64,000 bases of DNA, taken from NCBI RefSeq assembly GCF_017876495.1, contig NZ_JAGIOB010000001.1, forward strand, positions 4,340,001 through 4,404,000. The letters run 5' to 3'. Shown piece by piece: positions 35,837-52,928 of this stretch. Every line of letters starts with the position of its first letter. Position 1 is the first letter of the stretch. The notes beneath the pieces are model-generated. The model was given only the letters and a program-made list of their open reading frames with translations. It ran no database searches and was not told where the DNA came from. The DNA is from Microlunatus capsulatus. Lineage in GTDB: Bacteria > Actinomycetota > Actinomycetes > Propionibacteriales > Propionibacteriaceae. The translations under genes and the position numbers were made by a program.

Positions 35837-36727
35837 TCAGCGCTCGCCCCAGGCCCGGGCGAGGGCGACGACGCGGTCGTGGACCCGGGTGACCCCGGCC
35901 GGGGTGTTGAAGCTGGCGTACTCCGGCCAGGTGAAGAGGAACGTCGCGAGCTCGGCGGCGAGGCAGGCCCGGCGCACCACGCCCGGGTCCAGGTCGCGCG
36001 CCGCGGCGTAGCGCCGGACCATCGCCTCCTGGGGGAGCGCGACCCCGGCGGGCGTGGCCCGGACCGAGCAGAAGACCAGCTCGACCGCCGGGTTGCCGAC
36101 GCCGGCCCCCTGCCAGTCGGTCCAGACCAGCTGGTCGCCCTCGACCAGCAGGTTGTCGGTGTGGCAGTCGCCGTGCAGGAAGCAGTCCGCGACGGCGCCG
36201 ACCGCGTCGCGGAGAGACTCGACATCGGCGAGGACCGGGGCCAGCAGCGCGGGCTCGCCGGGCCAGGACCAGAACGCCACGGCCGCGCTGACGTCGGGTG
36301 AGACCAGGGTGGCCTCGAGCCACGACGGGCGCCGCCAGCCCGGGCCGGCCGGCACCGGGGTCTGGTGGAGCCGGGCGAGCTCGTCGGCCAGGCCGAGCCA
36401 CCGCTGGTGGCTCCAGCGGGTCGCGGGCCACGGTGCGGGGTGCTCGCTGAGCAGGACCGCCACGCGGTGGGTGGAGAGGCGGTGGCCGAGCAGCTCCGGC
36501 GTGCGGACCCCGAGCCGGCCGCGCAGGTGGAGGTAGACCGACAGCTCCCGCTCGGCGGCCTGACGTGCCCGGCCCTCGGAGGCAGCGGTGACCTTGAGGA
36601 CGGCCCGGGTGCCGTCCGCCCGGGTGACCGCGTGGACACAGGAGGCTGACATCGAGCCGGCCAGCGGCGACGCCGTCAGGGTGACACCCAGGTCGCGGGC
36701 CGCGGCGGCGACGTCGTCCTCCGTCAT
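35837..36727 (-). CDS. Aminoglycoside phosphotransferase-fold kinase (1)
   Basis: A 296-residue APH-family kinase of the protein-kinase-like fold. The catalytic loop HGDCHTDN (His185, Asp187, Asn192) and the metal-binding Asp204 (WTDWQ) are present, and Lys45 (AVLKV) can bind ATP. Substrates in this family range from antibiotics to choline and amino sugars. ATG 36727 starts the protein. It lies just outside the left end of the tRNA-Val island. Confidence 0.85.
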   Translation of the reverse strand: MTEDDVAAAARDLGVTLTASPLAGSMSASCVHAVTRADGTRAVLKVTAASEGRARQAAERELSVYLHLRGRLGVRTPELLGHRLSTHRVAVLLSEHPAPWPATRWSHQRWLGLADELARLHQTPVPAGPGWRRPSWLEATLVSPDVSAAVAFWSWPGEPALLAPVLADVESLRDAVGAVADCFLHGDCHTDNLLVEGDQLVWTDWQGAGVGNPAVELVFCSVRATPAGVALPQEAMVRRYAAARDLDPGVVRRACLAAELATFLFTWPEYASFNTPAGVTRVHDRVVALARAWGER

Positions 36728-37457
36728 GCCGCCATGGTCACCGACGGCACTGACACTCCGCGCCGAGAGGCTGGGTGCGCGCCGGACCCGGTGGTGGAGG
36801 GGGGGACCGCGACGGCGGCCCGGGACGGAAAAACCCCCGGTCGGTGGTTCCGGAGAACCCCCGGCCGGGGGTGGTGCTGGTGGGCGATACTGGGATCGAA
36901 CCAGTGACCTCTTCCGTGTCAGGCATGAGCAGTGCCGGTCCGAGCGTCCCCCGATGTTGCATTTTCCCTGGTCAGAGACGATATCGCCCCTGCTGCTCGC
37001 TGCAGCAACAAGTGGCAACTTCGGAGCGTTGGGGTCACGGTTGGGGTCAGGTCGACCTGGTCCGGGTACGTGGCAGGCCGGCCGATGAGGGCGCGCCGAC
37101 TGTGCCCCAGGGAGCACCGCTCTCGGGGTCCCGTCGATGGCGGTCACCACCAACCTCGGTAGCCGACGTGCTGCCATTCGTCCTGTATCCAGTCGAGCCA
37201 TGTCGCAAGACCCGTCGATCCGTCTCTCAGGTCCTACAGGGCGAGCGGGCTGTCGACGCTGCGTCGAACCTGAAAGTACTCGCGAGCGCGCACGCGATGA
37301 GGAGTGCCCCCGCGGACCCGACATCGGGCAGACATCGTCCATGACCAGGTCCGCGCTCGAGGCGAGGCACAGGCTGACGAGCGGAGGACATCCGGCCGCT
37401 GCCAGACGATCCCTTCAGAGTCGGGGGGAGAGGGGCTCGCCACCGACCACGGACGGC
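36728..37457. other. Non-coding island left end with tRNA fragment
   Basis: About 730 bases without a convincing gene. It contains the truncated tRNA-Val copy at 36868-36923. Beyond it are roughly 500 bases with a less extreme GC content than the neighbourhood and no intact frame. A 17-base string (37023-37039) also occurs at 51547-51563 near the other island end. Decayed integrase or transposition sequence is possible. Confidence 0.6.
36868..36923 (-). repeat. Island left attachment site (truncated tRNA-Val)
   Basis: A 56-base copy, with one mismatch, of 51618-51673. It includes the 3' half of tRNA-Val(GAC) from the anticodon through the T-arm and acceptor 3' end, plus 13 bases beyond. Identity ends abruptly in the anticodon loop. 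It is a pseudo-tRNA and the typical distal attachment site of a tRNA-targeted element. Confidence 0.88.
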
Positions 37458-38810
37458 TCAGGCCGAGTCGCGGTCGCGCTGCAGGATCTGGCGCACGCTT
37501 TGGCTGGCGCTCTGGAGCCGCTCGGTCTCGGTGTGGTCGAAGTCCTGGTCGGCGGTGGCGTCGTCGAGGCGGCGGAGCTGGTCGAGGATGGGTTGGTGGT
37601 GTTCGGGTCGGGCGTGCCACGCGAGGTCGGTGAGAGCCTGGTAGAGGCGGTCGAGGACGTGGGGGTCGGCTTTGCCGTAGGAGCGGGGCTGGGCGACGGC
37701 GAGCTCGAGGAGCTCAGCGAACCCGGGGCGGTGCAGCACGACCCGGGGGTGGTCGTCGCTGTCGTGGAGGACGAGCGGTCCGAGGTGGTGACGGGTGAGC
37801 TCGGCGAGCAGGGCGGAGGTCTGGCTGAGACCGTGGATGGCGGTCGTGGGGTCGTTGATGCCGGGAGAGAGGGCCTTGTTGACGATGTCGCTGACTTGCC
37901 GGAGCCCGTACCCGACGTCCTGGGCGGCGGTCCTCTCCGGCCCGAGGTTCACCGTGGCCCCGATCTTGCCCTGCAGCTGGTCGAGGCGGTCGGGGTCGAG
38001 CCGGTCACCCTGGCGGGGCCAGGTGGAGCCCAACGGGGTGCCCTGGACGACGAAGTGGCCGGGGTGGCAGTCGATGACCACGACGGCGTCGGCTTCTTCG
38101 GCGGCGTCGAGGAGGTCGTCCTGGTCGATGCTGGTCAGGAAGCCCGAGGAGGACGCCCACACGGTGGTGGTGACGGCGGGGGGACGGGGGACCAGCCGGT
38201 CGGCTTGAGGGTCGTCGTGGGCGACCAGGTTGGTCGCCATGGTGGCGGTGGCGTCGTCGTGGACCCGCTGCAGCATCGTCTCGACCCGGATCTGGCGGGT
38301 GAGGTGAGCCAGGAACAACACGAGGGCGACCACGCTGGCCAGGGCGAGGAGGAACGCCAACGTGACCGAGAGCCGGGGCACGAACAAGGCCCCACCTTCA
38401 GAGGGGGAACGGACCGAGCGGAGCACGGTCAAGGCGAACGTGAAGGTCGCCAGGAAGATCGCCAGGGTGACCTGGACGAACAGGTCCTGGGTGAAGGTCC
38501 GGAGCAGTCGGGGGGAGAACTGGCTGCTCGCCAGCTGCAAGGTCACCACGGTCAGGGAGAACGTGAGCGAGGTGACGGTGATCAGGGAGCTCGCCACCGC
38601 GTTGAGGACCGTCCGGGCAGCACCGGGGTCTCCGTTGAACACCAGGGCGTCCACGAACCCGGGCAGGTGCCGGTCCAGGCGGACGTCGAGCAACGGCACG
38701 ACGATCCCGGCCGCGACCGCGAGGACGACGCCCAGGACCGGCAGCGGCCACAGCTGGGTGCGGACACCGTCCTGCACCGTCTGGGCAGCCCGCTTCAACG
38801 ACAGGTTCAC
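37458..38810 (-). CDS. DUF2254 membrane protein
   Basis: A 450-residue membrane protein of the DUF2254 family. Four helices are within residues 15-160, including SLITVTSLTFSLTVVTLQLA and SQFSPRLLRTF, the family signature; a large cytosolic domain follows (GYGLRQVSDIVNKALSPGIND). GTG 38810 has GGAAGG upstream. It is the leftmost gene of the tRNA-Val island. Role unknown; an ion-channel-like function is only a guess. Confidence 0.88.
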   Translation of the reverse strand: MNLSLKRAAQTVQDGVRTQLWPLPVLGVVLAVAAGIVVPLLDVRLDRHLPGFVDALVFNGDPGAARTVLNAVASSLITVTSLTFSLTVVTLQLASSQFSPRLLRTFTQDLFVQVTLAIFLATFTFALTVLRSVRSPSEGGALFVPRLSVTLAFLLALASVVALVLFLAHLTRQIRVETMLQRVHDDATATMATNLVAHDDPQADRLVPRPPAVTTTVWASSSGFLTSIDQDDLLDAAEEADAVVVIDCHPGHFVVQGTPLGSTWPRQGDRLDPDRLDQLQGKIGATVNLGPERTAAQDVGYGLRQVSDIVNKALSPGINDPTTAIHGLSQTSALLAELTRHHLGPLVLHDSDDHPRVVLHRPGFAELLELAVAQPRSYGKADPHVLDRLYQALTDLAWHARPEHHQPILDQLRRLDDATADQDFDHTETERLQSASQSVRQILQRDRDSA

Positions 38811-39010
38811 AGGGCACAAGCCTTCCGGTTCACGCTGGTCGGGGTCGAGCTCGCTGACTGGGGTTGAGGCTGGCCGTGCGCGGGTCCGTCGCCGTCGGGC
38901 GTCGGGCGGGACCGGGGGCGGAGTGTGCTGACGCGGTGCTGATCCCGCCACCGGGGAGGACGTCTGTGTCCGCGCGCCGGATCCGAGGGGGATGAGCGGG
39001 AGAAGAGCGG

Positions 39011-39841
39011 TCAGGGGAGCTCGAACGGGAGGGTCAGGCCGTCGAGCGCGTGCCGGCACCGGCACTCGGCGCTGGCGTCGGCCTCGAGGTCCGCCAGGCT
39101 CGCGACGGTGTCGGTGAGCAACGTCTTGAGCCGGTCGAGGTTCGCGGCGAAGAGGCGCATGACCTCGGCCTGGGTCACCGCTTGGCTGTCGTCCACGCCG
39201 GCGTCGTGGTCGGTGACCAGCGCGATGGTGGTGTAGCAGACGGCGAGCTCCCGGGCGATCGCGGCCTCCGGGGCGCCGGTCATCCCGACGAGGGACCAGC
39301 CCTGGGCGGCGTGCCAGGTGGACTCGGCCCGGGTCGAGAAGCGCGGGCCGTTGATGACCACCATGGTTCCGCCGTCGACCAGCGGCTCGCCCGACCCGGC
39401 TGCGGCCCGCACGGCTGCCCGACCTCGGGGGCAGTAGGGATCGGCCAGGGAGACGTGGACGACAGGACCCTCGTCGTCGTAGACGGTCTGGTGGCGGCCG
39501 CTGGTGCGGTCGACGAGCTGGTCGGGCAGTACGATGGTCCCCGGGCCGAGCTCGGCCTGGAGGGATCCCACGGCGCAGGGAGCGAGCACCTGGCGCACGC
39601 CCACCGACCGGAGCGCCCAGAGGTTCGCGCGGTAGTTGATGCGGTGCGGGGGGAACTCGTGCTGCACCCCGTGCCGCGGCAGGAAGGCGACGGTCCTGCC
39701 GCGGATCTCCCCGATCGCGAGCGGCGCACTCGGCCGGCCGAAGGGCGTGTCGACCTCGACCGGGCGCGGGTCGTCCAAGAAGGTGTAGAGCCCGGTCCCG
39801 CCGATGATCCCGACGTCGGCACGATCGTGGTCAGTCGCCAT
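39011..39841 (-). CDS. mtnP: MTA phosphorylase family protein
   Basis: A 276-residue purine nucleoside/methylthioadenosine phosphorylase. Phosphate- and nucleoside-site motifs are present: GGTGLY (14-19), PRHG with HEFPPHRINYRAN, and NGPRFSTRAES. The family cleaves 5'-methylthioadenosine with phosphate. In this island it lies among glycan genes, so it may act on another 5'-deoxyadenosyl compound. The C-terminus contains an unusual CRCRH cluster. No strong ribosome site is seen for the ATG. Confidence 0.85.
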   Translation of the reverse strand: MATDHDRADVGIIGGTGLYTFLDDPRPVEVDTPFGRPSAPLAIGEIRGRTVAFLPRHGVQHEFPPHRINYRANLWALRSVGVRQVLAPCAVGSLQAELGPGTIVLPDQLVDRTSGRHQTVYDDEGPVVHVSLADPYCPRGRAAVRAAAGSGEPLVDGGTMVVINGPRFSTRAESTWHAAQGWSLVGMTGAPEAAIARELAVCYTTIALVTDHDAGVDDSQAVTQAEVMRLFAANLDRLKTLLTDTVASLADLEADASAECRCRHALDGLTLPFELP

Positions 39842-39988
39842 GCGGGAAGACTAGGCCGGTCACCGCCGCCGACCCGTCACCGACCGGTCGCCGGGGTGAG
39901 CCGGTCGCCGGGTGCCGCTCCAGCCGTCCCACACCGACGCCGTGCCGGTCGGGTTGCTTCGCCGTCGGGTGCCTGGTGCAGTGGGGGG

Positions 39989-41050
39989 ATGCGCGTACTG
40001 GTCACCGGAGCTGCCGGGTTCATCGGGTCCACGGTGGTGGACCAGCTCCAGGCGGGCGGGCACGAGGTCGTCGCCGTCGACGTCCTGCTGGGGGCCGCGC
40101 ACACCGACCGGCCGTCGTGGGCGACGTCGGCTCTGCAGCTGGTCGACGTCCGCGACGAGGCCGGCCTGGCGCCGCTCCTCGAGGGGGTTGACGTGGTCTG
40201 CCACCAGGCCGCCATGGTGGGCCTCGGGGTCGACGCTCACGACGCCCCGGACTACGTCTCCCACAACGTGCTCGGCACCTCCCGGCTGCTCTCGGCGATG
40301 GCCCGGGCCGGGGTCCTGCGTCTGGTGCAGGCCTCCTCGATGGTGGTCTACGGCGACGGCTCCTACACCTGCGGGGAGCACGGGGTGGTGCGGCCGCGGC
40401 CGCGTCGGCCCGAGGACCTGGCCGCCGGTCGGTACGACCCCGGCTGCCCGTGGTGCGGTCGTGGCCTGAGCTGGCGTCGGGTGAGCGAGGACGCGGTGCT
40501 GGACCCCCGCACCACGTACGCCGCCACGAAGCTCGCTCAGGAGCACCTCGTGAGCGCCTGGACCACTCAGGTGGGCGGCCGGGCCGTCTCGTTGCGCTAC
40601 CACAACGTCTACGGACCCCGCATGCCGCGGGACACCCCCTACGCCGGGGTGGCGAGCCTGTTCAGGTCCTCGCTCGCCGCCGGTCGGGCGCCCCGGGTGT
40701 TCGAGGACGGCGGCCAGGTGCGCGACTTCGTCGAGGTCAGCGACGTGGCCGCGGCCAACGTCCTCGCCCTGACCCGGCTCACCTCGACCGAGGGTCCGCC
40801 CGAGCACCGGGTCTACAACATCGCCTCCGGCCAGCCCCGGCCCATCCTGGAGGTCGCCACCCTGCTGGCCGAGCTGATGGGGGGCCCCGAGCCGCAGGTC
40901 GTCGGCGGCGGCCGCCCAGGAGACGTCCGGCACGTGGTCGCCGACCCCGCGCTGGCCGTGGACGAGCTCGGCTTCCGGCCCGCCGTCACGTTCGACGACG
41001 GGATGCGCCGCTTCGCCGAGGCACCGATGCGCACCGGCCTCGGCGGCTGA
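39989..41050 (+). CDS. NAD-dependent sugar-nucleotide 4-epimerase
   Basis: A 353-residue extended SDR. GAAGFIG is at residues 7-13 and the catalytic Tyr177-x3-Lys181 in TYAATK. An inserted segment with Cys128, Cys153 and Cys156 (CPWCGRGL) is typical of dTDP-L-rhamnose 4-epimerase-like enzymes. The product would be a nucleotide sugar donor for the glycosyltransferases in the island. The ATG follows GTGGGGGG directly, so start recognition is unusual, perhaps leaderless. It is convergent with the GT-C gene. Confidence 0.85.
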   Translation: MRVLVTGAAGFIGSTVVDQLQAGGHEVVAVDVLLGAAHTDRPSWATSALQLVDVRDEAGLAPLLEGVDVVCHQAAMVGLGVDAHDAPDYVSHNVLGTSRLLSAMARAGVLRLVQASSMVVYGDGSYTCGEHGVVRPRPRRPEDLAAGRYDPGCPWCGRGLSWRRVSEDAVLDPRTTYAATKLAQEHLVSAWTTQVGGRAVSLRYHNVYGPRMPRDTPYAGVASLFRSSLAAGRAPRVFEDGGQVRDFVEVSDVAAANVLALTRLTSTEGPPEHRVYNIASGQPRPILEVATLLAELMGGPEPQVVGGGRPGDVRHVVADPALAVDELGFRPAVTFDDGMRRFAEAPMRTGLGG

Positions 41051-41072
41051 GCACGCCCTCAGCCGGTCGCGG

Positions 41073-42488
41073 TCACCATCCCGTCCGCACCAGGTGGTTG
41101 ACCAGCAGCGCCCAGCCGGCGCTGCCGAGCAGCGCCCAGCTCGCGACCCGTCCGCGGAGCAGGGCGAGCCCGGAGCAGGCGACGACCCCGAAGGCCAGCC
41201 AGATCCGCTCGGTCTCCGCCTTCGACAAGCCAGAGAGGTCGGCGAGCACCGCGGCCAGCACCCCGGCGAGGGCGAGCAGGGCCACCACCCGGTCCTGCGA
41301 CCACGGGCGGCCTCGTCCAGCGACGAGGGCGGTGCCTGAGCGGACGGTGCCGAGGGCCAGCAGCGGTGAGCAGGCGACCACCCAGGCGGCGAGGTTGGCG
41401 TAGATGAAGTAGGAGTAGGGCCGGACGGCGGCGATGCCCTGGTAGTAGCGGATGCGCAGCTGGGCGAGGCCGGTCCACCAGCTGAAGCCGGCGAGCAGGT
41501 GGAGGCCGACCACGGTCAGCAGGCCGACCACGGCGGACGCCCAGGGGGCGATGACCCGCCGCCAGCCGTGCCGGCCGAGCCCGATCGCGCCGGCGGCGAT
41601 CACCACCAGGCCGAAGAGGAGCAGGCCGTAGTTCAGGAAGACCGCGGCTCCCAGCAGCAGACCGCCGGCGAGGCTGGTGAGGGGGTGACGTCGGCCCGCA
41701 CCCCGGCAGACCAGGGCCAGGCCGGCGACGGCCGCGCCGGCGAACAGCCCGTCGGCGGAGACCGCCATGAAGACCGCTCCGGGGAAGAGCGCGGCGAAGG
41801 GCACCAGTCGACGAGCCGCGTCAGGCGCACCGAGCTCGCGGAGCGCCGAAGGCATGGCGACGGCGGCGACGGAGGAGACCAGGATGCAGAGCGCTCCTGC
41901 CCAGGCGCCACCACCGAGGCCTCCACGGTCCAGGCCCCAGAAGACCAGGGTCGCGAGCGGAGGGTGGGCGGCGACGTGGGTCGTCCAGACCTGGGTCCCG
42001 TCGACGGTGGGGCTGAAGGCGATGAAGTCGGTGAAGGTCCGGAGGAACTCTCCGGGGTCGGTGATCCGGGGCAGGTCGTGGAGGTACTCGTTCGGGTCCA
42101 GCAGGACGTCCGCCCAGCCTCGCCGGAAGCCGTCCACCAGGGCCAGAGAGGCCAGCCAGGCCAGGTTGAGCAGCCAACCCGTCAGCAGCAGTCGACGCCA
42201 CGGCAGCCCCGCCGCCACCTGCTGCAGCCGGAGCCCGGCGACGAGGCAGGCCAGGGCCAGCGGAGTGCCCCAGCCGACGTGAGGCCCCCAGGACCCGAGG
42301 AGGGGCGGGTCACCGAGGAACAGCTGGGTCCCGTCGGCGGCCAGGGCGCGACCGACGACGGCGGCCAGGACGACCAGCGCGAGCGCGGCGGCCACCGCGA
42401 CCGGGTCGCCCCGCCGCAGGGTCGACGCGGGTGGGTCGGGCCGGGCGGTCGCCGGTCCTCGCCCGGCTCCCGGCCCGGGTGTCGTCAC
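41073..42488 (-). CDS. GT-C type membrane glycosyltransferase
   Basis: A 471-residue integral membrane protein with about eleven helices and the layout of mannosyltransferases of the GT-C group. The first large external loop contains DPNEYLHDLPRITDP and an aspartate-rich region expected for the polyprenyl-phosphate-sugar donor site. GTG 42488 overlaps the histidine kinase stop by four bases, so it is the last gene of the RR-HK-GT operon. It probably adds a sugar on the outer face of the membrane. Confidence 0.75.
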   Translation of the reverse strand: MTTPGPGAGRGPATARPDPPASTLRRGDPVAVAAALALVVLAAVVGRALAADGTQLFLGDPPLLGSWGPHVGWGTPLALACLVAGLRLQQVAAGLPWRRLLLTGWLLNLAWLASLALVDGFRRGWADVLLDPNEYLHDLPRITDPGEFLRTFTDFIAFSPTVDGTQVWTTHVAAHPPLATLVFWGLDRGGLGGGAWAGALCILVSSVAAVAMPSALRELGAPDAARRLVPFAALFPGAVFMAVSADGLFAGAAVAGLALVCRGAGRRHPLTSLAGGLLLGAAVFLNYGLLLFGLVVIAAGAIGLGRHGWRRVIAPWASAVVGLLTVVGLHLLAGFSWWTGLAQLRIRYYQGIAAVRPYSYFIYANLAAWVVACSPLLALGTVRSGTALVAGRGRPWSQDRVVALLALAGVLAAVLADLSGLSKAETERIWLAFGVVACSGLALLRGRVASWALLGSAGWALLVNHLVRTGW

Positions 42489-43696
42489 CGGGGCGTCGGT
42501 CCGGGCGGAGGTTTCGGCGCGGGCGGGGGGAGCTCCAGGGCGAAGGAGCAGCCGGTCCGGGTGTTGTGGACCCCGATGTTCCCGTCGTGCGACTGCGCCA
42601 CGCCGCGGACGATGGCGAGGCCGAGCCCCGCTCCGCCGTCCTGGCCGTCGCGGGCCGCGCTGCCCCGCCAGCCGGTGTCGAAGACCCGGGCCAGGTGCGG
42701 CTCAGGGATGCCTCCGCACTGGTCCACCACCTCCACCCGGACGGCTCCGGCGGAGGTGCGGCCCGTCCGCACCAGCACGGCCAGTCCGGGCGCGGTGTGC
42801 CGGATGGCGTTGCTGATGAGGTTGGTGACGGCGCGGGTCAGGTCCGTGTGGTTGCCGAGGACGGTGAGCCGGTCGCCGGGCAGGACCTCGCCCCGCAGGT
42901 CCACTCCCGCGGCAGCGGCGAGGGCCGAGGTCTCGAGGAGGACGTCGTCGACCACCTCGGCGAGCGCGACGGCCCGCCGCCGCTCCGAGGACGCCGAGCC
43001 CTGCACGCGGGAGAGCGCGAACAGGTCGTCGACGAGCAGGCTCATCCGCGCGACGGTGGTGCGCAGGTGGGCGAGCGCGGCCGGCACGTCGGCGACGATG
43101 TCGTCCTCGATGCCCTCGAGCACGGCGCGCATGCCGGCCAGCGGCGTGCGGAGGTCGTGGGACATGAAGCTCACGAGCTCGCGTCGTGCCTCCTCCGCCG
43201 CCCGCTCGCGCGCCCGGGCCTCGACGAGGCGACGGCGGGCGGTGTCCACGTCGGTCAGCACGGCCGCCAGCTCGGCCGGGACCTCAGCGACGGCCGGAGC
43301 GGGCCGGTGGAGGGCAGCCGACGGCGGATCGGGCTCCTCGCGCACGAGGACAGGTGGGGGGTGGTCGACGGAGGCGGACAGGTCGGCGACGGCCAGGCTG
43401 ATCCGCCGGAAGCCCGCCAGCAACGTCCGGGTGACCAGCCACGCTCCCAGCGCAGCCAGGGTGACGGCGATGGCCAGGGTGGTGAGCACCACCCCGGAGT
43501 CGTGGCCGGAGAGGAACATGCCGACGACGGCGACCACCACCGCCAGGGCCACGGCGACGACGGGCAGCAGGGTCGCGGTCAGCAGCTGGTAGCGCAGGGA
43601 CGACCGGCGGAGGAGGCGCAGTGCCAGGGCCCCGAGGAGGCCGGTGGCCGCGCACGCGGCGAGCGCGAGGCCCAGGACGACCACGAGGTCGGCCAT
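42485..43696 (-). CDS. Sensor histidine kinase (1)
   Basis: A 403-residue membrane histidine kinase. There are four helices in the first ~110 residues and little external sensor sequence. The phosphorylated histidine is in SHDLRTPLAG, and the N, G1 and G2 boxes of the ATPase domain are present (NLISNAIRHT, VDQCGGIPEP, GAGLGLAIVRG). ATG 43696 overlaps the response regulator stop (TGATG). The glycosyltransferase gene follows with a four-base overlap. Confidence 0.9.
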   Translation of the reverse strand: MADLVVVLGLALAACAATGLLGALALRLLRRSSLRYQLLTATLLPVVAVALAVVVAVVGMFLSGHDSGVVLTTLAIAVTLAALGAWLVTRTLLAGFRRISLAVADLSASVDHPPPVLVREEPDPPSAALHRPAPAVAEVPAELAAVLTDVDTARRRLVEARARERAAEEARRELVSFMSHDLRTPLAGMRAVLEGIEDDIVADVPAALAHLRTTVARMSLLVDDLFALSRVQGSASSERRRAVALAEVVDDVLLETSALAAAAGVDLRGEVLPGDRLTVLGNHTDLTRAVTNLISNAIRHTAPGLAVLVRTGRTSAGAVRVEVVDQCGGIPEPHLARVFDTGWRGSAARDGQDGGAGLGLAIVRGVAQSHDGNIGVHNTRTGCSFALELPPPAPKPPPGPTPR

Positions 43697-44397
43697 CACC
43701 GCTCCTGCTCGGCGAGCAGCCGGTAACCGCTCCGGCCGAGGGTCACCACGATCCTCGGGTCGGAGGGGTCGACCTCGATCTTCTCCCGCAGCCGTCGGAC
43801 GTGCACGGTGACGGTGGAGGTGTCGCCGAAGTCCCACCCCCAGACCCGGCGCATCAGGTCGTCCTTGGTGAAGACCTGGCCGGCATGGGTCGCGAGGAAG
43901 GTGAGGAGGTCGAACTCGCGGCTGGTCAGCGCCAGAGGGCGGCCGTCACGCTGAGCGGTGCGGGCCGGCAGATCCAGGTGGAGGCCGGCGACGTCGAGCG
44001 TCTCGGTCAGCAGGCGGGCGCCCGAGAGCCGCTCCGCACGGCGCAGCAGGGCCTCGATCCGCAGGACCACCTCCCGCGGGCTGAAGGGTTTGACCACGTA
44101 GTCGTCGGCACCGGTCTCGAGGCCGACCAGCCGGTCCTCCTCCTCGCCGCGGGCGGAGAGCATGATGACGGCGGCGTGGTCGCCCAGCCGGCGGCGGCGG
44201 CGCAGGACCTCCAGGCCCGAGAGCAGAGGGAGCATGACGTCGAGGACCACGACGTCGGGCCTGAACCGTTCCCACCCCGCCAGGGCCGTGGGTCCGTCCG
44301 CGGCGCGGGCCACCTCGTAGCCGGCCTTCACGACGTAGGCCGCCAGGACCTCCGCCATCGTGGCGTCGTCCTCGACCACCAGCACCCGTGCGCTCAC
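43696..44397 (-). CDS. OmpR-family response regulator (1)
   Basis: A 233-residue regulator: a receiver domain with phospho-acceptor Asp in VVLDVMLPL and the conserved Lys in VVKPFSPREV, followed by a winged-helix DNA-binding domain ending with KEIEVDPSDPRIVVTL-like residues and GYRLL. Pairs with the adjacent histidine kinase. It is divergent from the GT2 gene and may control the glycan genes of the island. Confidence 0.92.
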   Translation of the reverse strand: MSARVLVVEDDATMAEVLAAYVVKAGYEVARAADGPTALAGWERFRPDVVVLDVMLPLLSGLEVLRRRRRLGDHAAVIMLSARGEEEDRLVGLETGADDYVVKPFSPREVVLRIEALLRRAERLSGARLLTETLDVAGLHLDLPARTAQRDGRPLALTSREFDLLTFLATHAGQVFTKDDLMRRVWGWDFGDTSTVTVHVRRLREKIEVDPSDPRIVVTLGRSGYRLLAEQER

Positions 44398-44519
44398 ACC
44401 GGCACTCTAGGTGCGCCCTCGAGGCCCGGGCCCCGGCCGAGGACGGACCCGCGGGTGCCGTAAGCGATGCGCAAGACTCGGATCTGGCGAGCAGGGGGAG
44501 GCGCGGCTACCGTCGCCAC

Positions 44520-45167
44520 GTGTCTGTCGACGTCATCCTGCCCTGTCTCGACGAGAGCGAGGCCCTGCCCTGGGTGCTGGGGCGGATCCCGGCCGGCATG
44601 CGTGCGCTGGTGGTCGACAACGGGTCTCGCGACGACTCCGTCGCCACCGCTCGGCGGCTCGGCGCCGAGGTGGTGCTGGCCCCGGTCCGCGGCTACGGGG
44701 CCGCCTGCGCCGCCGGGCTGGGGCACAGCCGGGCCGACGTGGTCGTGACGCTCGACTGCGACGGCAGCGTCGACCCCGATGAGCTGCCGGCTCTCGTGGC
44801 TCCCGTGCTGGACGACGAGCTCGACCTGGTGATCGGTCGACGCGTCCCGGTCGGCCGCGCTGCCTACCCGCTGCACCTGCGCTTCGCCAACCGGGAGCTG
44901 GCGCGCCGGCTGTCCCGGCGCACCGGCGTGACCATCCAGGACTGCGGGCCGGTCCGGGTCGGCCGGCGTCAGGGCCTGCTCGACCTGGACGTGCTCGACC
45001 AGCGGTCCGGGTACCCGGCGGAGACGGTCGTCAAGGCTGCGGCCGCGGGTTACCGGATCGGACAGCTCCCGGTCAGCTACCGGGTCAGGACCGGACGCTC
45101 GAAGGTGACCGGGACCCCGCTGGGGATCTGGCGAGCGGTGCGCGACTCCTCGGCCGCCCTGCGATGA
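44520..45167 (+). CDS. GT2 family glycosyltransferase (DPM-like)
   Basis: A 215-residue family 2 glycosyltransferase. It begins VDVILPCLDESEALPWVLGR, has VVTLDCDGSVDPDEL as the metal-binding DxD region and SYRVRTGRSKVTGT near the end, as in dolichol-phosphate mannose synthases. It would load a sugar onto polyprenyl phosphate, feeding the GT-C enzyme. GTG 44520 lacks a near ribosome site and may be leaderless. Its stop overlaps the next ATG. Confidence 0.88.
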   Translation: MSVDVILPCLDESEALPWVLGRIPAGMRALVVDNGSRDDSVATARRLGAEVVLAPVRGYGAACAAGLGHSRADVVVTLDCDGSVDPDELPALVAPVLDDELDLVIGRRVPVGRAAYPLHLRFANRELARRLSRRTGVTIQDCGPVRVGRRQGLLDLDVLDQRSGYPAETVVKAAAAGYRIGQLPVSYRVRTGRSKVTGTPLGIWRAVRDSSAALR

Positions 45168-46513
45168 CCCGTGGACGTGCCGAGACGCTGATCGTGCTCG
45201 CCAAGGAGCCCCGGCCCGGCCGCGTCAAGACGAGGCTGCAGGCGTCGTTCTCCCCGGAGGAGGCGGCCCAGCTCGCCGCCGCCGCGCTGGAGGACAGCCT
45301 GTCGGCCGTCGAGACGGCGGAGGTGCCTCACCAGGTCGTCGCGTGGGACGGACCGGGACGCTGGTGGCGGCAGCGGTTGGGCGACCGTGGCCATGTCGTC
45401 GTCGACCAGCCGGACGGCGACCTCAGCACCCGGCTGGCCGCCGCCTTCCGTGGGGCGGCTGCTGCCGACGCCGGCCGGGTCGACGGCCCCCGGTGCCGCC
45501 TGCTGATCGGGATGGACACTCCGCAGGTCACCCCCTCTCTGCTCCGGACCAGCTGGGAAGGTGCCGACGCCGTGCTGGGTCTGACGCCCGACGGCGGCTT
45601 CTGGGCGATCGGTCTCGCCGGCGTCGACCCGGACCTCTGCTTCAGCGGCATCCCGATGTCCACCCCCCGGACCGGCGCCGCGCAGCTGAACCGGCTGGTC
45701 GAGCTGGGGCTCGACGTCAAGCTGCTGCCGCCGCTCCGGGACGTCGACGAACCCGCCGACGCCGAGGCCGTCGCCTACCACCACCCCGACCTCGGGTTCT
45801 CCGTGCTGCACCGGCAGCTGCTCGACCGACGACCCGAGCAGCCCGCCGACCGGCTCTTCGACCGCGCCTACCTGGGCGGACCGCTCCGGTCGGACGGCGG
45901 CACCGGGGACGTGCTCGCGATCGACGTGGCCCGGTGGAGCGGTGCCGCCGACGCCGTCGACCAGCTGATCGTGAGCCGCTGCGAAGCCCCCGTCCTCGAC
46001 CTCGGCTGCGGCCCGGGCCGGCTGGTCCGAGCCGTCACCGACACCGGGCGGCCGGCGCTGGGGATCGACAGCTCCGCCGCAGCGGTCGAGCTCTGCCAGC
46101 GGCGTGGTGCGCCGGCCCTGCGTTCCCGCGTCGAGGACCCGCTCCCGGCCGAGGGGCGATGGGGAACGGTCCTGCTGATCGACGGGAACATCGGCATCGG
46201 GGGCGATGTCCGCCGGTTGCTGAACCGGTGCCGCGAGCTCGTCGCGCCCGGCGGACTCATCATCTGCGAGGTGGACGACCGTGCGGACGGCCACCAGCAG
46301 GCCGACGTCGTCCTGCGCAGCAGCGGCGCGAGCTCCACCCAGATGGCCTGGAGCCGGATCGGCGCCAGCGCCCTCGCCGAGCTCGCCGCCCACCTGGACC
46401 TCTGGGTGAGCGAGCAGTGGTCCGCCGAGGGTCGGACCTTCGTCACCCTCCGCTCCACCGGGCAGCGCTCCGACCCGGGAGATCCCGCCCACGAGGACGT
46501 CGGCCGACCGTAA
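45164..46513 (+). CDS. DUF2064 (TIGR04282-like) - methyltransferase fusion
   Basis: A 449-residue fusion. Residues 1-215 are a DUF2064 nucleotidyltransferase-like GT-A domain (AKEPRPGRVKTRL, LLIGMDTPQVTP, LTPDGGFWAIGL); relatives are named TIGR04282 arsenosugar biosynthesis glycosyltransferases in NCBI models. Residues about 275-440 form a class I SAM methyltransferase (VLDLGCGPGRLVRAV, PGGLIICEV). The ATG overlaps the GT2 stop by four bases. The fusion links sugar and methyl transfer in one polypeptide; its product is unknown. Confidence 0.82.
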   Translation: MTRGRAETLIVLAKEPRPGRVKTRLQASFSPEEAAQLAAAALEDSLSAVETAEVPHQVVAWDGPGRWWRQRLGDRGHVVVDQPDGDLSTRLAAAFRGAAAADAGRVDGPRCRLLIGMDTPQVTPSLLRTSWEGADAVLGLTPDGGFWAIGLAGVDPDLCFSGIPMSTPRTGAAQLNRLVELGLDVKLLPPLRDVDEPADAEAVAYHHPDLGFSVLHRQLLDRRPEQPADRLFDRAYLGGPLRSDGGTGDVLAIDVARWSGAADAVDQLIVSRCEAPVLDLGCGPGRLVRAVTDTGRPALGIDSSAAAVELCQRRGAPALRSRVEDPLPAEGRWGTVLLIDGNIGIGGDVRRLLNRCRELVAPGGLIICEVDDRADGHQQADVVLRSSGASSTQMAWSRIGASALAELAAHLDLWVSEQWSAEGRTFVTLRSTGQRSDPGDPAHEDVGRP

Positions 46514-46559
46514 GCGTCGACATCTCCCGCGGGCCAGGACCGACGCCCAGACTCAGCTC

Positions 46560-47138
46560 ATGAGCTTCCTCATCGACCGGGCCGGATCCGCGGCAGAGCG
46601 CCGGGTCCGTCGCTTCCAGCAGAGCCTCGGCACGCCGGCCCGGACGACGCGGACCACGGTGGTCGTCGGCCGCGTCCTCGGCGGCGCCTTCCTCGTCTGC
46701 TTCCTCACCGGCCTGTACAGCCACTTCCTGCAGGACCCGCGGCCGTGGATGCGGTTCCCCACGTGGCCGGCCCGCCTCTACCAGGTGAGCCAGGGCCTGC
46801 ACGTGGCGACCGGCATCGCGTGCATCCCGTTGCTGCTGGCGAAGCTCTGGACCGTCTACCCGTTGCTGTTCGCCTTCCCGCCGTTCCGCACCGTGCGCCA
46901 AGCCCTGGAGCGTGCCTCCATCGGGGTCCTGGTCGCCACCTCAGTGGTGCAGCTGGCCACAGGGCTCCTCAACACCTACCAGTGGTATCCGTTCCCCTTC
47001 GTGTTCCGGACAGCGCACTACGCGCTGGCCTGGATCATCGTCGGATCCCTCGTCCTGCACGTCGGCGTCCAGCTGCCGAAGATCCTGCAGTTCTGGCGAG
47101 GGCAGCGGGCTTCGAGTGCACCGGACGGCGACCTCTGA
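46560..47138 (+). CDS. Membrane cytochrome b-like protein
   Basis: A 192-residue membrane protein with four helices and histidines at positions expected for two b hemes: one in YSHFLQ, one in GLHVATG, one in TAHYAL and one in LVLHVGVQ. It would bring electrons to or from the molybdopterin enzyme encoded next. It overlaps the following gene (TGATG). A CCGTAAGCG string lies in its upstream region. Confidence 0.72.
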   Translation: MSFLIDRAGSAAERRVRRFQQSLGTPARTTRTTVVVGRVLGGAFLVCFLTGLYSHFLQDPRPWMRFPTWPARLYQVSQGLHVATGIACIPLLLAKLWTVYPLLFAFPPFRTVRQALERASIGVLVATSVVQLATGLLNTYQWYPFPFVFRTAHYALAWIIVGSLVLHVGVQLPKILQFWRGQRASSAPDGDL

Positions 47139-47782
47139 TGGCGGACCCGGCGGGTGGGCGCCGCAACGGGGGCACCGACGCGGCGGACGTGTTCCCGCGG
47201 CGGGCCTTCCTGGCCACGGTGGCCACGGCCACGGCGGCCGTCACCCTGCTGACGGCGGGCCAGACCGTCCCGGCCCTGCGGGCGGTCAACGTCTTCGGTC
47301 CGCGGGACGGGTCTGGTCCGCAAGGGCTGCCGGTCAACAAGACCGCGGTCTCCGCCGAGGTGGTCCCCGGCGCCACCGACCCCGGCTGGCGGCTGCTGGT
47401 GACGGCAGGACGCACGACGAGGTCCTGGTCCCGTCCCGAGCTGCTCGCTCTGCCGCAGACCGAGGTCAGGCTGCCGATCGCCTGCGTCGAGGGGTGGAGC
47501 GCCAGCGCCCTGTGGTCCGGGGTACCGCTCCGCGACCTGCTGGACGCGGTCGACGCCGACCCCCGCGCGGACCTCCAGATCAGCAGCATCCAGCCGCGAG
47601 GGGCCTACCGGGTCGTCGAGATGGGACCGGAGTTCGCCCGGCACCCGGACACCCTGGTCGCCCTCGGCCTGAACGGCTCGACCCTCGACCTCGACCACGG
47701 CTTCCCGGCGCGGATGATCGCCCCGAACCGTCCTGGTGTCCTCCAGACCAAGTGGCTGCAACGGATCGAGGTGCTGACGTGA
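47138..47782 (+). CDS. Molybdopterin-dependent oxidoreductase (sulfite oxidase-like)
   Basis: A 214-residue secreted enzyme of the sulfite oxidase molybdopterin family. A twin-arginine leader (FPRRAFLATVA, residues 19-29) indicates folded export through Tat. The molybdenum ligand Cys116 is in IACVEGWSAS, and the region MIAPNRPGVLQTKWLQRIEV is typical. It is shorter than sulfite oxidase, having only the Moco domain. It works with the cytochrome b partner encoded before it. Confidence 0.82.
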   Translation: MADPAGGRRNGGTDAADVFPRRAFLATVATATAAVTLLTAGQTVPALRAVNVFGPRDGSGPQGLPVNKTAVSAEVVPGATDPGWRLLVTAGRTTRSWSRPELLALPQTEVRLPIACVEGWSASALWSGVPLRDLLDAVDADPRADLQISSIQPRGAYRVVEMGPEFARHPDTLVALGLNGSTLDLDHGFPARMIAPNRPGVLQTKWLQRIEVLT

Positions 47783-48381
47783 GGGTCCTCCGCGGACTGG
47801 TGACCGCGACCGGGCTGACCCTTCTGGGGCTGGCCGGGCTCCTCGAGCTGCTCCTCCGCCGCCGTTCCCCGACCACCGGGCCCGGCCCGCAACCCCGTGC
47901 CGCGCCGGATCCGGAGGAACCAGCTCCGCTGAGCGCCGCTGTGCGGCGGACGCGGCTGGTGCTGGGAGCGGTGGGCGTGGGCGTGGGCGCGTACGGACTC
48001 CTCGTCCTGCTCCGCACGGTCCCGGGGGGCGAGCAGCTCGGGATCCTGGTCTGGCTCGCCGGAGCCGTCGTGCTCCACGACGCGGTCCTGGTGCCCACCG
48101 TCTCGCTCGTCCGTGCCGGCGCGCACCGGACCGGGCGCCGGCTTCCCGGGGGTGCTGTCGCGCTCGTCGACGGCGGACTCGTGGTGATCGGCCTCCTGTC
48201 CCTGGTCGTCCTCCCGGAGATCTGGGCCCAGAGCCGCGGCCCGCTCAACCCGAGCATCCTGCCCGGCCACTACGGGTCTGCCCTCGCCATCACGTGGCTC
48301 GTGGTCGCCGTGGTCACCGCATCGGGCGCGGCCGTCCTCGTCGCCCTGCACCGTCGGGAGCGGCTGCCCGGCAGGCCGTAG
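47779..48381 (+). CDS. Membrane protein of the Mo-oxidoreductase operon
   Basis: A 200-residue hydrophobic protein with about five helices, including LLVLLRTVPGGEQLGILVWL and SILPGHYGSALAITWLVV. Histidines are few. GTG 47779 overlaps the oxidoreductase stop (GTGA), so the three genes are coupled. No family recognised; it may be a membrane anchor or an assembly factor for the redox complex. Confidence 0.7.
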   Translation: MRVLRGLVTATGLTLLGLAGLLELLLRRRSPTTGPGPQPRAAPDPEEPAPLSAAVRRTRLVLGAVGVGVGAYGLLVLLRTVPGGEQLGILVWLAGAVVLHDAVLVPTVSLVRAGAHRTGRRLPGGAVALVDGGLVVIGLLSLVVLPEIWAQSRGPLNPSILPGHYGSALAITWLVVAVVTASGAAVLVALHRRERLPGRP

Positions 48382-48504
48382 CCGAGCTGGACCCGCTCGA
48401 CCCGGGGACGTCCTGGTCGGCGCTGGTCAGGACGGGCCCGCTACCTCGACGCCGCCGTCGGCGACGCGCTGACGGCGCACAAGCTGTCCTCGCTCCGGAG
48501 ACGG

Positions 48505-49884
48505 TCAGCCGGCAGGCAGGGGCAGCGTGAGACGGAAGTGGGCCCCGGTTCCTCCAGGGCGGGGTTCGAGGCAGATGAGGTCGCCACCGTGGGTGCGGGC
48601 GGTGGCGCGGGCGATGGCGAGCCCGAGCCCGGACCCGCCGGTGTCGGCGGCCCGAGCGTGATCGAGACGGACCAGTCGGTCGAAGATGCTCTCGCGTGCT
48701 GCGGCTGGTATCCCGTGCCCGTCGTCTGTGACGTCGACGACGACCGAGGTAGTCGTCGTGAGGGTCGTGACCGCGATCGAGCCGGTGCCCTCCACCGCTC
48801 GCCGCGCGTTGTCGAAGAGGTTGCGCAGCAGACCCTGGAGGGCGGCCGGGTCGCCGAGGACGGTGGTGCCGACCCCCGAGATGGTGATGGTCAGGGCAGG
48901 GGCGAGGAGCTGGGCCCGCGCCGCCTCGTCCGCGACCAGCCGGCTCAGCTCGACGGGCTCGCGCCGATCGGGCGTACCGGCGTCGAGCCGGGCGATGGCC
49001 AGGAGGTCGTCGACCAGCCGGCCCGCCCGGCGCGCTTCGCCGACCAGCAGCATCTCCAGCCGGTCGAGGTCCTCGTCGGTCATGGTGTCGCGGTGCTGGA
49101 GCAGTGTCTCGGCGGCAGCCTGCAGGCCGGTGAGGGGGGTGCGCAGCTCGTGAGCGGCGTCGGCCAGGAAGCGGCGAACCCGGTCCTCGGCCTCCCGGGC
49201 GTTCGCCTCGGCGCCTTCCAGCTCGTCGAGCATGTCGTCGAAGGCAAGGGCCGTGCGTCCGATCTCGGTCGTCGTGCGGCGGGGCCGGAGCCGGTCACCG
49301 CGGGAGCCGGCCGCGATGGTCTGGGCCAGCGACGCCATCACCTCCAGCGGGTGCAGGGCGAGCCGGACCGCGACCACGGCGAGGGCAGTGCCCAGGCCCA
49401 GAGCCAGCAGCCCGCTGGCGAGCAGGATCCGGCTCAGGTCGTCGAGCCCCTCCGACCTCAGGGACGTGCCGACACCCAGGCTCAGCTGCGCGCCGTCGGC
49501 ACGGCCCGGACCGGCCAGCCGGGTGCTCACCGTCCGCACACCTGTGCTGGTGGGAACCGGGCTGCCGAGCAAGGTGCCGTCGCGGAGCTCGAGTGACACG
49601 AGGACACCGTCGGCGGTGACGCGGTTCACGATCTGCTGGGGACGGACACCGGAGCGAGCCAGCTGGCGGGCCAGCTGAGCGCGGCCGGTGAGGAGGGCGT
49701 CGAGGCTCCGGTCGGACTGGGCGGCGAAGACCGTCCTGACCGAGAAGGACAAGATCACGAGCACGACGGTGAGGACCACCAGCACACCGGCGACGACGCG
49801 CAGCCGGAGTGACGTGGTGGCGATCGACCTCCCCGTCTCTGGCCCGCGCGAGGCGGGCCGCTCCTCGGTTCCGGCAGAGCTCAC
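48505..49884 (-). CDS. Sensor histidine kinase (2)
   Basis: A 459-residue kinase with two helices enclosing an external sensor (residues about 50-145), a HAMP linker, the histidine box AHELRTPLTG and intact ATPase boxes (NLFDNARRAV, VTDDGHGIPA, GGSGLGLAIAR). GTG 49884 overlaps the response regulator stop. The pair resembles PhoP/PhoQ- and TcrA/Y-like systems. Confidence 0.92.
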   Translation of the reverse strand: MSSAGTEERPASRGPETGRSIATTSLRLRVVAGVLVVLTVVLVILSFSVRTVFAAQSDRSLDALLTGRAQLARQLARSGVRPQQIVNRVTADGVLVSLELRDGTLLGSPVPTSTGVRTVSTRLAGPGRADGAQLSLGVGTSLRSEGLDDLSRILLASGLLALGLGTALAVVAVRLALHPLEVMASLAQTIAAGSRGDRLRPRRTTTEIGRTALAFDDMLDELEGAEANAREAEDRVRRFLADAAHELRTPLTGLQAAAETLLQHRDTMTDEDLDRLEMLLVGEARRAGRLVDDLLAIARLDAGTPDRREPVELSRLVADEAARAQLLAPALTITISGVGTTVLGDPAALQGLLRNLFDNARRAVEGTGSIAVTTLTTTTSVVVDVTDDGHGIPAAARESIFDRLVRLDHARAADTGGSGLGLAIARATARTHGGDLICLEPRPGGTGAHFRLTLPLPAG

Positions 49885-50552
49885 CGGGCTGGCCCCAGCT
49901 GGTAGCCGCGGTTGCGGACCGTGTGGACCAGCCGCGGCTCGCCCGCAGCCTCGAGCTTGCGGCGGAGCGAGGAGATGTGGACTTCGACGAGGTTGGGGTC
50001 GAAGCCGTCGTAGCCCCAGACGGCGGTCAGGATCTGCAGCTTGGACACCACCCGGTCCTGGTGGGAGGCGAGGTAGCTGAGGAGCCGTCGCTCGGTGTCG
50101 GTGAGGTCGACGAGCCGGCCGGCGCGTTGCACGGTGCTGCCCTCGGGGTCGAGGGTGAGGTCACCGATCGCAGCGACCACGCCGGGGCGCGAACGTCGGA
50201 GCACCGCCTGGACCCGGGCCACGAGCTCGGTCATGGCGAACGGCTTGACGAGGTAGTCGTCGGCGCCACCGGTCAACGCCTCGACGCGGTCGTCGACCGC
50301 GTCGCGGGCCGTCAGCACGAGTACCGCTGCCCGGCTCTGCTGCCGCAGGACCGGCAGCAGAGCGAACCCGTCGCGGCCGGGCAGCATGATGTCCAGCACG
50401 ACCAGATCGGGGCCGTACCTGACCAGGCTCTGCTCGAGGTCGCTCCCGTCAGGCCGGGACTCGACGGTGAACCCCTGCGCCCGGAGCACGGTCTGGACAG
50501 CTAGCCGGACGGTCTCGCTGTCCTCCACCACCAGGATCCGGGCCGCGTGCAC
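49881..50552 (-). CDS. OmpR-family response regulator (2)
   Basis: A 223-residue regulator. The receiver has acidic residues at VEDSET and the phospho-acceptor Asp in VVLDIMLPGRDG; the lysine is in LVKPFAMTE. The C-terminal winged helix ends with HTVRNRGYQLG. GTG 50552 (VHAARILVV) is taken as start. It is divergent, by 163 bases, from a secreted DUF5666-like gene that is a likely target. Confidence 0.92.
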   Translation of the reverse strand: MHAARILVVEDSETVRLAVQTVLRAQGFTVESRPDGSDLEQSLVRYGPDLVVLDIMLPGRDGFALLPVLRQQSRAAVLVLTARDAVDDRVEALTGGADDYLVKPFAMTELVARVQAVLRRSRPGVVAAIGDLTLDPEGSTVQRAGRLVDLTDTERRLLSYLASHQDRVVSKLQILTAVWGYDGFDPNLVEVHISSLRRKLEAAGEPRLVHTVRNRGYQLGPAR

Positions 50553-50715
50553 GTCCCCATCATCGGTCCCTCCGGGAAGGCCCGAGGCTCGTTCGGACGC
50601 CGGGGGACCTGAAGGCCTGCTGAAGGCCGGTCCAGGTCCCGGGTGCTCTGACCGTGTCGGTGGCCAGACTGGCCCTGCCCCCAGATCTCCTGGCCGGCTA
50701 GAGAGAAGAGAGAAC

Positions 50716-51177
50716 ATGAACAAGCCCATCCTCCTCCTCGCCTCCGCTGTCTCAGCGCTCGCCCTCGCCGGCGTGGTCGGCGCAGGGGTGGCGTCCGCCG
50801 ACCCGACCGGCACCGCCGCTCCCGAGCCGGCAGCATCTCCCAGCGCCGCAGCGGGCGCGAAGGGTGACCAGGCCCGACGACACCACCGCGGGCTCACCGC
50901 CAGGGCGTTGCACGGCGAGGTGACGCTGGCCGGGAAGCAGCACCGGCAGGTCCAGTTCCAGCGAGGCAGGGTCACCACCGTCGAGGACAGCTCGGTGAGC
51001 GTGCGCAGCGCCGACGGCTTCGTCGCCACCTACACGATCGAGTCCAGCACGAAGATCCGGGTCGCCCAGAAGAAGGCCACTCTCGTTGACGTCGAGGTGG
51101 GCGACCGCGTCCGTGTGTTCGCCGCCAAGGACGGGTCGACGCTGACGGCGACCCGGCTGGTCGACCGGAGGCGGTAG
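50716..51177 (+). CDS. Secreted DUF5666-like protein
   Basis: A 153-residue exported protein: signal peptide (MNKPILLLASAVSALALAGV, cleavage near ASA-DP), an alanine/proline linker, then a small beta-rich domain (TLVDVEVGDRVRVFAAKDGS, TATRLVDRR) like DUF5666 repeats. It lies divergent from a two-component system, suggesting envelope-stress control. No catalytic residues. Function unknown. Confidence 0.65.
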   Translation: MNKPILLLASAVSALALAGVVGAGVASADPTGTAAPEPAASPSAAAGAKGDQARRHHRGLTARALHGEVTLAGKQHRQVQFQRGRVTTVEDSSVSVRSADGFVATYTIESSTKIRVAQKKATLVDVEVGDRVRVFAAKDGSTLTATRLVDRRR

Positions 51178-51230
51178 CACATCGCTGCGGCGGCGTGTCC
51201 GGCGTCGACAAGAGTCGACCCGGGCCGGGC

Positions 51231-51566
51231 TCAGAGGGTCTGGGCCTTGACCAGGAACGGGCTCGCGGCCTTGAGCACCGAGGCGCGGGTCGCGGGCTTC
51301 TCGAACGCGCCCTTGTAGACCCCGCCCTCGGCCTCCTTCTTGCCGAGCACCCCAAGGATGGCCGCGTGCCGGGCCTCGACCCCGAAGATGCTCGCGGCCG
51401 CGGTCAGCAGACCCTTCTCCTTGAGCAGGCTCGGGGCGGCGCCCAGGTAGGCCGACACCCCCAGGTCATCGAAGGTGGATGACGCTGCACGCTCGACCCT
51501 GACGGGCTCTCCCAGAGCCTCGCTGCACCGCCTCGCGACGCCAGCGGGAGCGTTGGGGTCACGCCC
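51231..51566 (-). pseudogene. Truncated ferritin-like (Ferritin_2) protein
   Basis: Only the C-terminal half of a Ferritin_2-type domain is recognisable: TFDDLGVSAYLGAAPSLLKE and IFGVEARHAAILGVL, carrying the second metal motif. The N-terminal half with the first metal ligands is absent. The open frame continues upstream into the attachment site at 51618, without homology. The gene was probably cut by integration or deletion at the island border. The given upper limit is approximate. Confidence 0.6.
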
Positions 51567-51617
51567 CCCCGAGAACAGGAAAACCCTTGCCGAGGACTCC
51601 AGAGAGCCCTGTGACAA

Positions 51618-51673
51618 GGGGTGGTGCTGGTGGGCGACACTGGGATCGAACCAGTGACCTCTTCCGTGTCAGG
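51618..51673 (-). repeat. Island right attachment site (inside tRNA-Val)
   Basis: A 56-base block equal, except one base, to 36868-36923. It runs from the anticodon loop of the intact tRNA-Val through its 3' end and 13 bases beyond. The 3' end of the tRNA faces the island, as expected for integration into a tRNA gene. Confidence 0.88.
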
Positions 51674-51702
51674 GAAGCGCGCTACCGCTGCGCCAATCGC
51701 CC
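51631..51702 (-). tRNA. tRNA-Val (GAC)
   Basis: A complete 72-base cloverleaf: acceptor GGGCGAT pairs with the 3' GTCGCCC (one U-G pair), D-arm, anticodon stem CTTCC/GGAAG with anticodon GAC, T-arm with GGTTCGATCC. The 3' half is duplicated at the left end of the island. Confidence 0.95.
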
Positions 51703-51707
51703 GTGCG

Positions 51708-51778
51708 AGGTGGAGACGGGATTTGAACCCGTGTACACGGATTTGCAGTCCGTTGCCTCGCCTCTCGGCCACTCCACC
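51708..51778 (-). tRNA. tRNA-Cys (GCA)
   Basis: A 71-base tRNA: acceptor GGTGGAG/CTCCACC, anticodon arm GGACTGCAAATCC with GCA, T-arm CGGGTTCAAATCCCG. It is in a cluster with tRNA-Gly upstream and tRNA-Val downstream. Confidence 0.95.
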
Positions 51779-51819
51779 GCGGGGAACTTCCCCCCAGGGG
51801 ACTGGCGAGATGTACTCCG

Positions 51820-52861: not shown

Positions 52862-52928
52862 GGCGGGCCGATTCGGCACCCGGGCCTCGCGTGGGCTAAG
52901 GTTGCCGACGCCTCGCAAGGGGCCCGAG

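Follow-up and report, generated by a model that had tools for sequence, protein, structure and literature searches.

What process placed 14.75 kb of DNA between two copies of the same tRNA half in Microlunatus capsulatus? The block in question lies at 36868-51673 of a stretch of 64,000 nucleotides (the window, whose numbering is used throughout; positions 4,340,001 to 4,404,000 of NZ_JAGIOB010000001.1, in a host genome that is a single contig of 4,409,943 bases), and at one end it runs into a gene for tRNA-Val(GAC). We favour the explanation, to which we give a probability of about 0.8, that the block is a mobile element inserted into tRNA-Val(GAC) by recombination of the tyrosine-recombinase type, and that it is now an integrase-less remnant resembling a cis-mobilizable element (CIME). 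Integration into the tRNA gene had already been proposed in an earlier sequence-only reading of this DNA, and it is supported here because of the polarity of a tRNA base, a synteny breakpoint, the GC content at third codon positions (GC3), putative arm-type sites at the block ends, and the islands found in the same tRNA of two relatives, G010 and G019. Features that this earlier reading had passed over are a 17-base word common to the inner ends, the polarity of the mismatch and a piece of a ferritin-like gene close to the right end.

The block is bounded by a direct repeat of 56 bp, at 36868-36923 and 51618-51673, with an identity of 55/56; the sole mismatch is a T at 36888 as opposed to a C at 51638. 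The two copies are spaced 14,750 bp apart, which would be the size of the circle after excision. Beyond the edges of the repeat, ungapped identity drops to 25/60 and 24/60. According to ARAGORN, 51628-51702 is an intact minus-strand tRNA-Val(GAC); the right repeat copy spans this tRNA from its anticodon loop through its 3' end and 10 bp further, and the 3' end points into the block. These are the repeat and the tRNA that the sequence-only reading had described, and its account of the left copy as a truncated tRNA also holds, in that ARAGORN calls no tRNA there and the copy matches the 3' part of the tRNA at 55/56. A BLAST search with 36700-37100 against the 4.41-Mb genome gave five matches. 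Apart from the query, these are the right copy, 41 bp of the neighbouring tRNA-Val(CAC) and two short stretches that look unrelated, and no further full copy of the repeat was found. Chance is ruled out as the source of the repeat by the identity of its copies and the lack of any other full copy genome-wide. ARAGORN also calls tRNA-Cys and tRNA-Gly, both on the minus strand, and tRNA-Val(CAC) at 52929-53002 on the plus strand.

The mismatch between the copies bears on which of them is native. In the sense of the tRNA, the acceptor-stem base opposite U7 is A in the left copy and G in the right copy, and ARAGORN draws the present pair of the working tRNA as a wobble, U7.G66. This base is A in all 15 of the tRNA-Val(GAC) genes taken from 15 relatives. 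The exact 23-base tRNA pattern containing the G was found, among 391 genomes, in this genome and in six genomes of other genera; none of the 18 other genomes of the genus that were sampled has it. Since the left copy carries the base of the relatives and the right copy does not, the left one appears to be native, and the element appears to have brought the 3' end that the working tRNA now has. G006, which is the closest relative going by an aminotransferase next to the tRNAs (87% identical), agrees with this polarity: its homology to the right side covers 51617-53026 and ends at the edge of the repeat, and the match of its tRNA to the left copy extends outward by another 10 bp.

Directly after each repeat copy there is a stem-loop with a run of T. 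The one at 36833-36872 (minus strand; RNA fold -32.4 kcal/mol, z -2.05) would be the terminator-like structure of the native tRNA-Val, lying beside its displaced 3' end, and the one at 51584-51620 (minus strand; -23 kcal/mol, z -3.30) would be borne by the element and follow the restored tRNA. We picture a mobile element that would have recombined into the 3' half of tRNA-Val(GAC), in the 56-bp segment that starts at the anticodon loop and ends shortly after the 3' end, by means of a recombinase presumably of the tyrosine type. The element's copy of that segment (the right attachment core, minus strand), together with its own terminator, would have restored the tRNA at 51628-51702, and the native 3' end would have been displaced to 36868-36923 (the left attachment core, minus strand). 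The integrase would later have been lost, and movement would now be possible only with an incoming integrase that matches. The cargo would have been built from modules, namely 5'-methylthioadenosine phosphorylase (MTAP), a sugar-transfer and redox cluster with its own two-component system, and another two-component system accompanied by a small secreted protein.

The composition of the block differs from that of its surroundings, a check that the sequence-only reading had suggested. Mean GC3, computed on GC-based gene calls, is 0.930 in the 15 called genes inside the block as opposed to 0.974 in the 53 outside (Mann-Whitney p 1.7e-8). Outside the island, a gene for an AraC-type regulator at 56569-57933 has a GC3 of 0.89, as low as the lowest of the island.

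The two inner ends of the block have a 17-base word, GGAGCGTTGGGGTCACG, in common and in the same orientation. The longest word shared in 2000 shuffles was 14 bases long, and none reached 17. A 16-base part of this word has two copies in this genome and none in 197 other genomes of the family. Its 10-base core, GTTGGGGTCA, occurs three times genome-wide, at 37028, 37040 and 51552, all just inside the block ends, and the reversed control pattern occurs once. The left putative arm-type sites (37023-37049, plus strand) consist of the 17-base word at 37023-37039 and two copies of the core 12 bp apart; the right one (51547-51563, plus strand) is the 17-base word with a single copy. Relative to the repeat, the sites change sides between its two copies, which fits the arm sites of a circular attP and disfavours a colinear duplication. 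Two patterns searched in viral_contigs for a virus with the same attP had no matches, and blastn of the junctions against phages returned 29 and 5 records, all of them partial, the annotated ones among those listed being mostly tRNA-Val.

The same tRNA is occupied in other members of the genus. A search of 20 genomes, 19 of them relatives, found two tRNA-Val 3' copies also in G010 (15.0 kb apart) and in G019 (14.3 kb apart). The G019 island (L046:1469-15779) is a 14.3-kb element that resembles an actinomycete integrative and conjugative element (AICE), with FtsK/SpoIIIE, Prim-Pol, AAA_25 and a tyrosine integrase. The PF00589 match of this integrase stops 143 bp from the tRNA. The G010 island (L043:1899-16910) is a 15-kb DISARM island with DrmA, DrmB, DrmE_C, a methyltransferase and an rve transposase; no tyrosine integrase was found among the seven of its genes that were scanned, one of the three PF00589 matches of that genome falling outside the matches listed. 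Pairs of CCAGCAA spaced by 12 bp lie at both ends of the G010 island, and in the G019 island two copies of GTCGGAC are spaced by 12 bp on the right, the left end having an imperfect pair. The end motifs of the three islands differ in sequence and are alike in spacing and in distance from the core; a pair with 12-bp spacing arises by itself in about 5-9% of shuffles. Among the matches listed, at least five of the 19 relatives (G005, G013, G014, G016 and G019) have an integrase match and a tRNA-Val 3' match that lie at most 700 bp apart.

In G005 the integrase match is on the side of tRNA-Val(CAC), and a 31-bp piece of a tRNA-Val 3' end lies about 12.8 kb beyond the tRNA-Val(CAC) of that genome, with an integrase match nearby. 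In the window, tRNA-Val(CAC) faces outward, and synteny with G006 ends at 53026, just past its 3' end. The tRNA-Val(CAC) side may be a second insertion site.

A genome-wide search for PF00589 at E values up to 10 gave eight matches, none of them in the window. No recombinase, relaxase or FtsK-type gene was found by Pfam among the 15 called cargo genes, nor any phage family, and PHROGs, which covered the two ends only, gave nothing significant for 10 translations (best E 0.079). With putative arms flanking the core on both sides and no integrase gene, the block is best understood as a CIME-like remnant. The sequence-only reading had seen no integrase and had concluded that the element appears fixed; the first statement stands for the window, and the second is not established, because attachment sites with putative arms persist. 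A possible trace of how the integrase disappeared lies at 51214-51477 on the minus strand, where a gene fragment (C-terminal part of PF13668) matches the host's own ferritin-like gene over the C-terminal part at 98% identity; the G006 counterpart is 89% identical. The fragment is near the tRNA-proximal end, which is where the G019 element has its integrase, so that the integrase may have been lost through a rearrangement at this place, although this is a guess. The host's ferritin-like gene spans the contig ends, which cut through it, and the joined read has one T more than G006 and the island fragment, probably an artefact of the position at which the circle was cut.

Relatives were searched for the block and for an unoccupied site. 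No cargo protein was found downstream of tRNA-Val in 14 relatives (tblastn, E 1e-15, half of the query covered; 9 to 19 kb downstream of the tRNA per relative), and so the sequence-only reading's concern that close relatives might all carry the same syntenic block is not borne out in them. The DNA directly downstream of tRNA-Val is different in every relative compared. The ABC ATPase was the sole left-flank protein to be matched downstream of a relative's tRNA-Val, at 28-31% and in two relatives. Homologs of genes further left in the window occur in G003 (5566-7276, 64% and 47%) and G005 (17122-17799, 61%), and in G006 about 54 kb of other DNA separates the homolog of window position 30201 from the tRNA. 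When 18.1 kb of this DNA was searched against the M. capsulatus genome, it matched over 0.7 kb at 89%, in a place about 245 kb away, over 1.9 kb at 65%, and more weakly in other pieces. At E 1e-150, any piece of the block was matched in 8 of 197 family genomes, which all belong to the genus and include this genome itself, and the longest piece in a relative was about 3.1 kb at 65%. At E 1e-20, G006 matched only the ferritin piece and a 0.2-kb piece of a kinase gene.

The cargo begins on the left with a DUF2254 membrane protein (37458-38810, minus strand; PF10011, E 1.7e-113), followed by MTAP (S-methyl-5'-thioadenosine phosphorylase; 39011-39841, minus strand; NF005876, 416.6 bits against a cut-off of 306) and an NAD-dependent sugar epimerase/dehydratase (40034-41050, plus strand; PF01370, with no NCBIfam equivalog above cut-off). 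A hydrophobic membrane protein of 440 amino acids (41073-42395, minus strand) has no Pfam or NCBIfam match, and we presume that it is possibly a GT-C type transferase. The first two-component system (42485-44385, minus strand; HisKA, HATPase_c, Response_reg, Trans_reg_C) comprises a histidine kinase at 42485-43699 and a response regulator at 43696-44385. The plus-strand genes that follow encode a family-2 glycosyltransferase resembling polyprenyl- or dolichyl-phosphate hexose transferases (44520-45167; PF00535, all NCBIfam matches under cut-off), a fused DUF2064 transferase and methyltransferase (45194-46513; PF09837 and Methyltransf_25, TIGR04282 at 117.9 bits being under its cut-off of 134), a cytochrome b561-like membrane protein (46560-47138; PF01292, E 8.5e-8), a molybdopterin-binding oxidoreductase of the sulfite oxidase/MsrP-like fold family (47138-47782; PF00174, E 2.4e-22), and a membrane protein of 146 amino acids without a Pfam or NCBIfam match (47941-48381). 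The second two-component system (48505-50552, minus strand; Pfam) has its histidine kinase at 48505-49785 and its response regulator at 49881-50552. Last, before the ferritin fragment, is a small protein with a signal-like N-terminus (50716-51177, plus strand), which has no Pfam match and a homolog in G001 that is 58% identical; in G001 this small secreted protein also occurs together with the second two-component pair. The Pfam and NCBIfam annotation agrees with the earlier description of the cargo as a glycan and redox cluster with two two-component systems.

This cargo appears to be a mosaic of modules that are common in actinomycetes and not exotic. We scanned named organisms for loci encoding the fused DUF2064-methyltransferase protein; around the best 80 of 310 such loci, mostly from Streptomyces and some of them short, the epimerase was found at 72, the kinase at 61, the regulator at 65, the family-2 glycosyltransferase at 77, the cytochrome at 69, the molybdoprotein at 70, the 440-amino-acid protein at 55 and MTAP at 7. 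Within the genus, similar clusters occur elsewhere in two arrangements, and the island has features of both. We infer that the cargo may modify a sugar linked to a polyprenyl carrier and that this may involve a redox step outside the cytoplasm. A literature search that combined DUF2064 with glycosyltransferase found no paper. Elsewhere in the window, a tandem repeat with a 25-bp unit (31579-31678) lies between two called genes and extends into the next one.

Several observations weigh against integration of a foreign element. No empty site was found among the relatives compared, all of which have other DNA downstream of the tRNA, so that the uninterrupted region the sequence-only reading had suggested looking for did not turn up; the left-flank genes are scattered in relatives. 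The polarity argument turns on a single base. The end motifs are arm-type integrase sites by inference, the right end has one GTTGGGGTCA site only, and no integrase with this arm motif was found in the 197 other family genomes (by the 16-mer) or with the viral_contigs patterns. The shared end words of G010 and G019 are singly weak, being equalled in 20 and 133 of 2000 shuffles. Clusters of the cargo type are widespread on the chromosomes of relatives and of named actinomycetes, and in G004 the same tRNA-Val is followed, about 22-28 kb downstream, by such a cluster (C9:608023-614141), with no second tRNA 3' copy among the matches of that genome; the position of this cluster makes it somewhat less likely that the corresponding part of the cargo is wholly foreign.

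These observations can be set against three rival readings, which overlap with one another. The block could still be mobilisable, that is, a functional cis-mobilizable element whose integrase is supplied by an incoming element of the tRNA-Val family. The near-identical cores and the putative arms kept at both ends would be expected of such an element, and the same tRNA holds the integrase-bearing G019 element as well as the G010 island, which shows no integrase among its seven scanned genes; we nevertheless think it unlikely, since the arm motif is different in all three islands, the motif has no further copy in this genome and its 16-mer none in the rest of the family, and the right side has one arm site. 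A broader and tentative proposal is that the tRNA-Val(GAC) of the genus is the target of a family of elements that have private arm sequences and share the layout of their attP, in which short direct repeats are spaced by 12 bp and start at a distance from the core of about 87-116 bp on one side and of 57-86 bp on the other. Its integrase-less members, carrying DISARM or an ordinary metabolic cluster, would be passengers movable by a suitable integrase. This we regard as doubtful.

The block could instead be a composite, in which two or more elements accumulated in tandem in the tRNA and an internal deletion then removed what lay between the outer ends, integrases and inner attachment sites included. 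At least three cargo modules are found apart in relatives (DUF2254, the cluster from MTAP to the molybdoprotein, and the second two-component system), the ferritin fragment attests to a rearrangement near the right end, and tandem decay of this kind is described for CIMEs in PMC5704250. There are just two tRNA-Val(GAC) 3' copies, however, with no inner fragment seen, and sharing of one motif by the two outer ends is what a single element would show, so that a composite origin seems improbable. That no recombinase took part, and that homologous or illegitimate rearrangement or the decay of a duplicated tRNA left a fragment 15 kb away, is very improbable: the chromosomal cargo-type genes of relatives, the related cluster near this tRNA in G004, the lack of an empty site and the lack of an integrase in the window would be accommodated by it, but the allele polarity, the breakpoint at the tRNA edge, the GC3, the end motif's change of side relative to the core between the two copies and the other islands in the same tRNA all speak against it.

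If a single element did integrate into tRNA-Val(GAC), the direction of insertion of a sharply bounded tRNA island can be read from one base of the tRNA, and putative attachment arms can survive without an integrase. A common sugar and redox locus together with MTAP could then enter a genome as a single unit, as suggested by G006 having matched only the ferritin and kinase pieces. Within one genus, one tRNA gene would serve conjugative, defence and metabolic islands.

Islander, as described in PMC4383910, looks for an intact tRNA and a cognate fragment in the correct orientation, 2-200 kb apart, with the fragment not within a Pfam domain of a coding gene, and it requires an integrase. The block resembles such an island in that an intact tRNA and, 14.75 kb away from it and oriented alike, a cognate fragment enclose apparently acquired genes, and differs in having no integrase gene (PMC4383910). 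Its left fragment lies outside the called genes at 35837-36727 and 37458-38810, the open reading frames that overlap it having been scanned in part with Pfam. Like the AICEs treated in PMC3218068, the block uses a tRNA 3' end as its target, and the AICE-like element of G019 uses the same tRNA; unlike them, it has no FtsK/SpoIIIE, replication or integrase gene. The attP sites of Cluster K mycobacteriophages, described in PMC3203893, offer a similar layout, in which the core overlaps a tRNA or tmRNA, short arm-type repeats lie on both sides (in Pixie, direct but for one) and, in CrimD, a terminator lies between the core and an arm site; their arm sequence and target are other than those found here, and no phage gene was seen in the block. 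A CIME is defined, in PMC5704250, as an element without integration or transfer genes that retains attL and attR, and integrase-less islands are likewise described in PMC3146451. The block shares with these the keeping of both attachment sites (cores of 55/56 and putative arms) and the absence of integration and transfer genes, and differs from CIMEs in not standing in tandem with an intact element (PMC5704250). The block is thus best filed as a CIME-like, integrase-less remnant in an integration hotspot.

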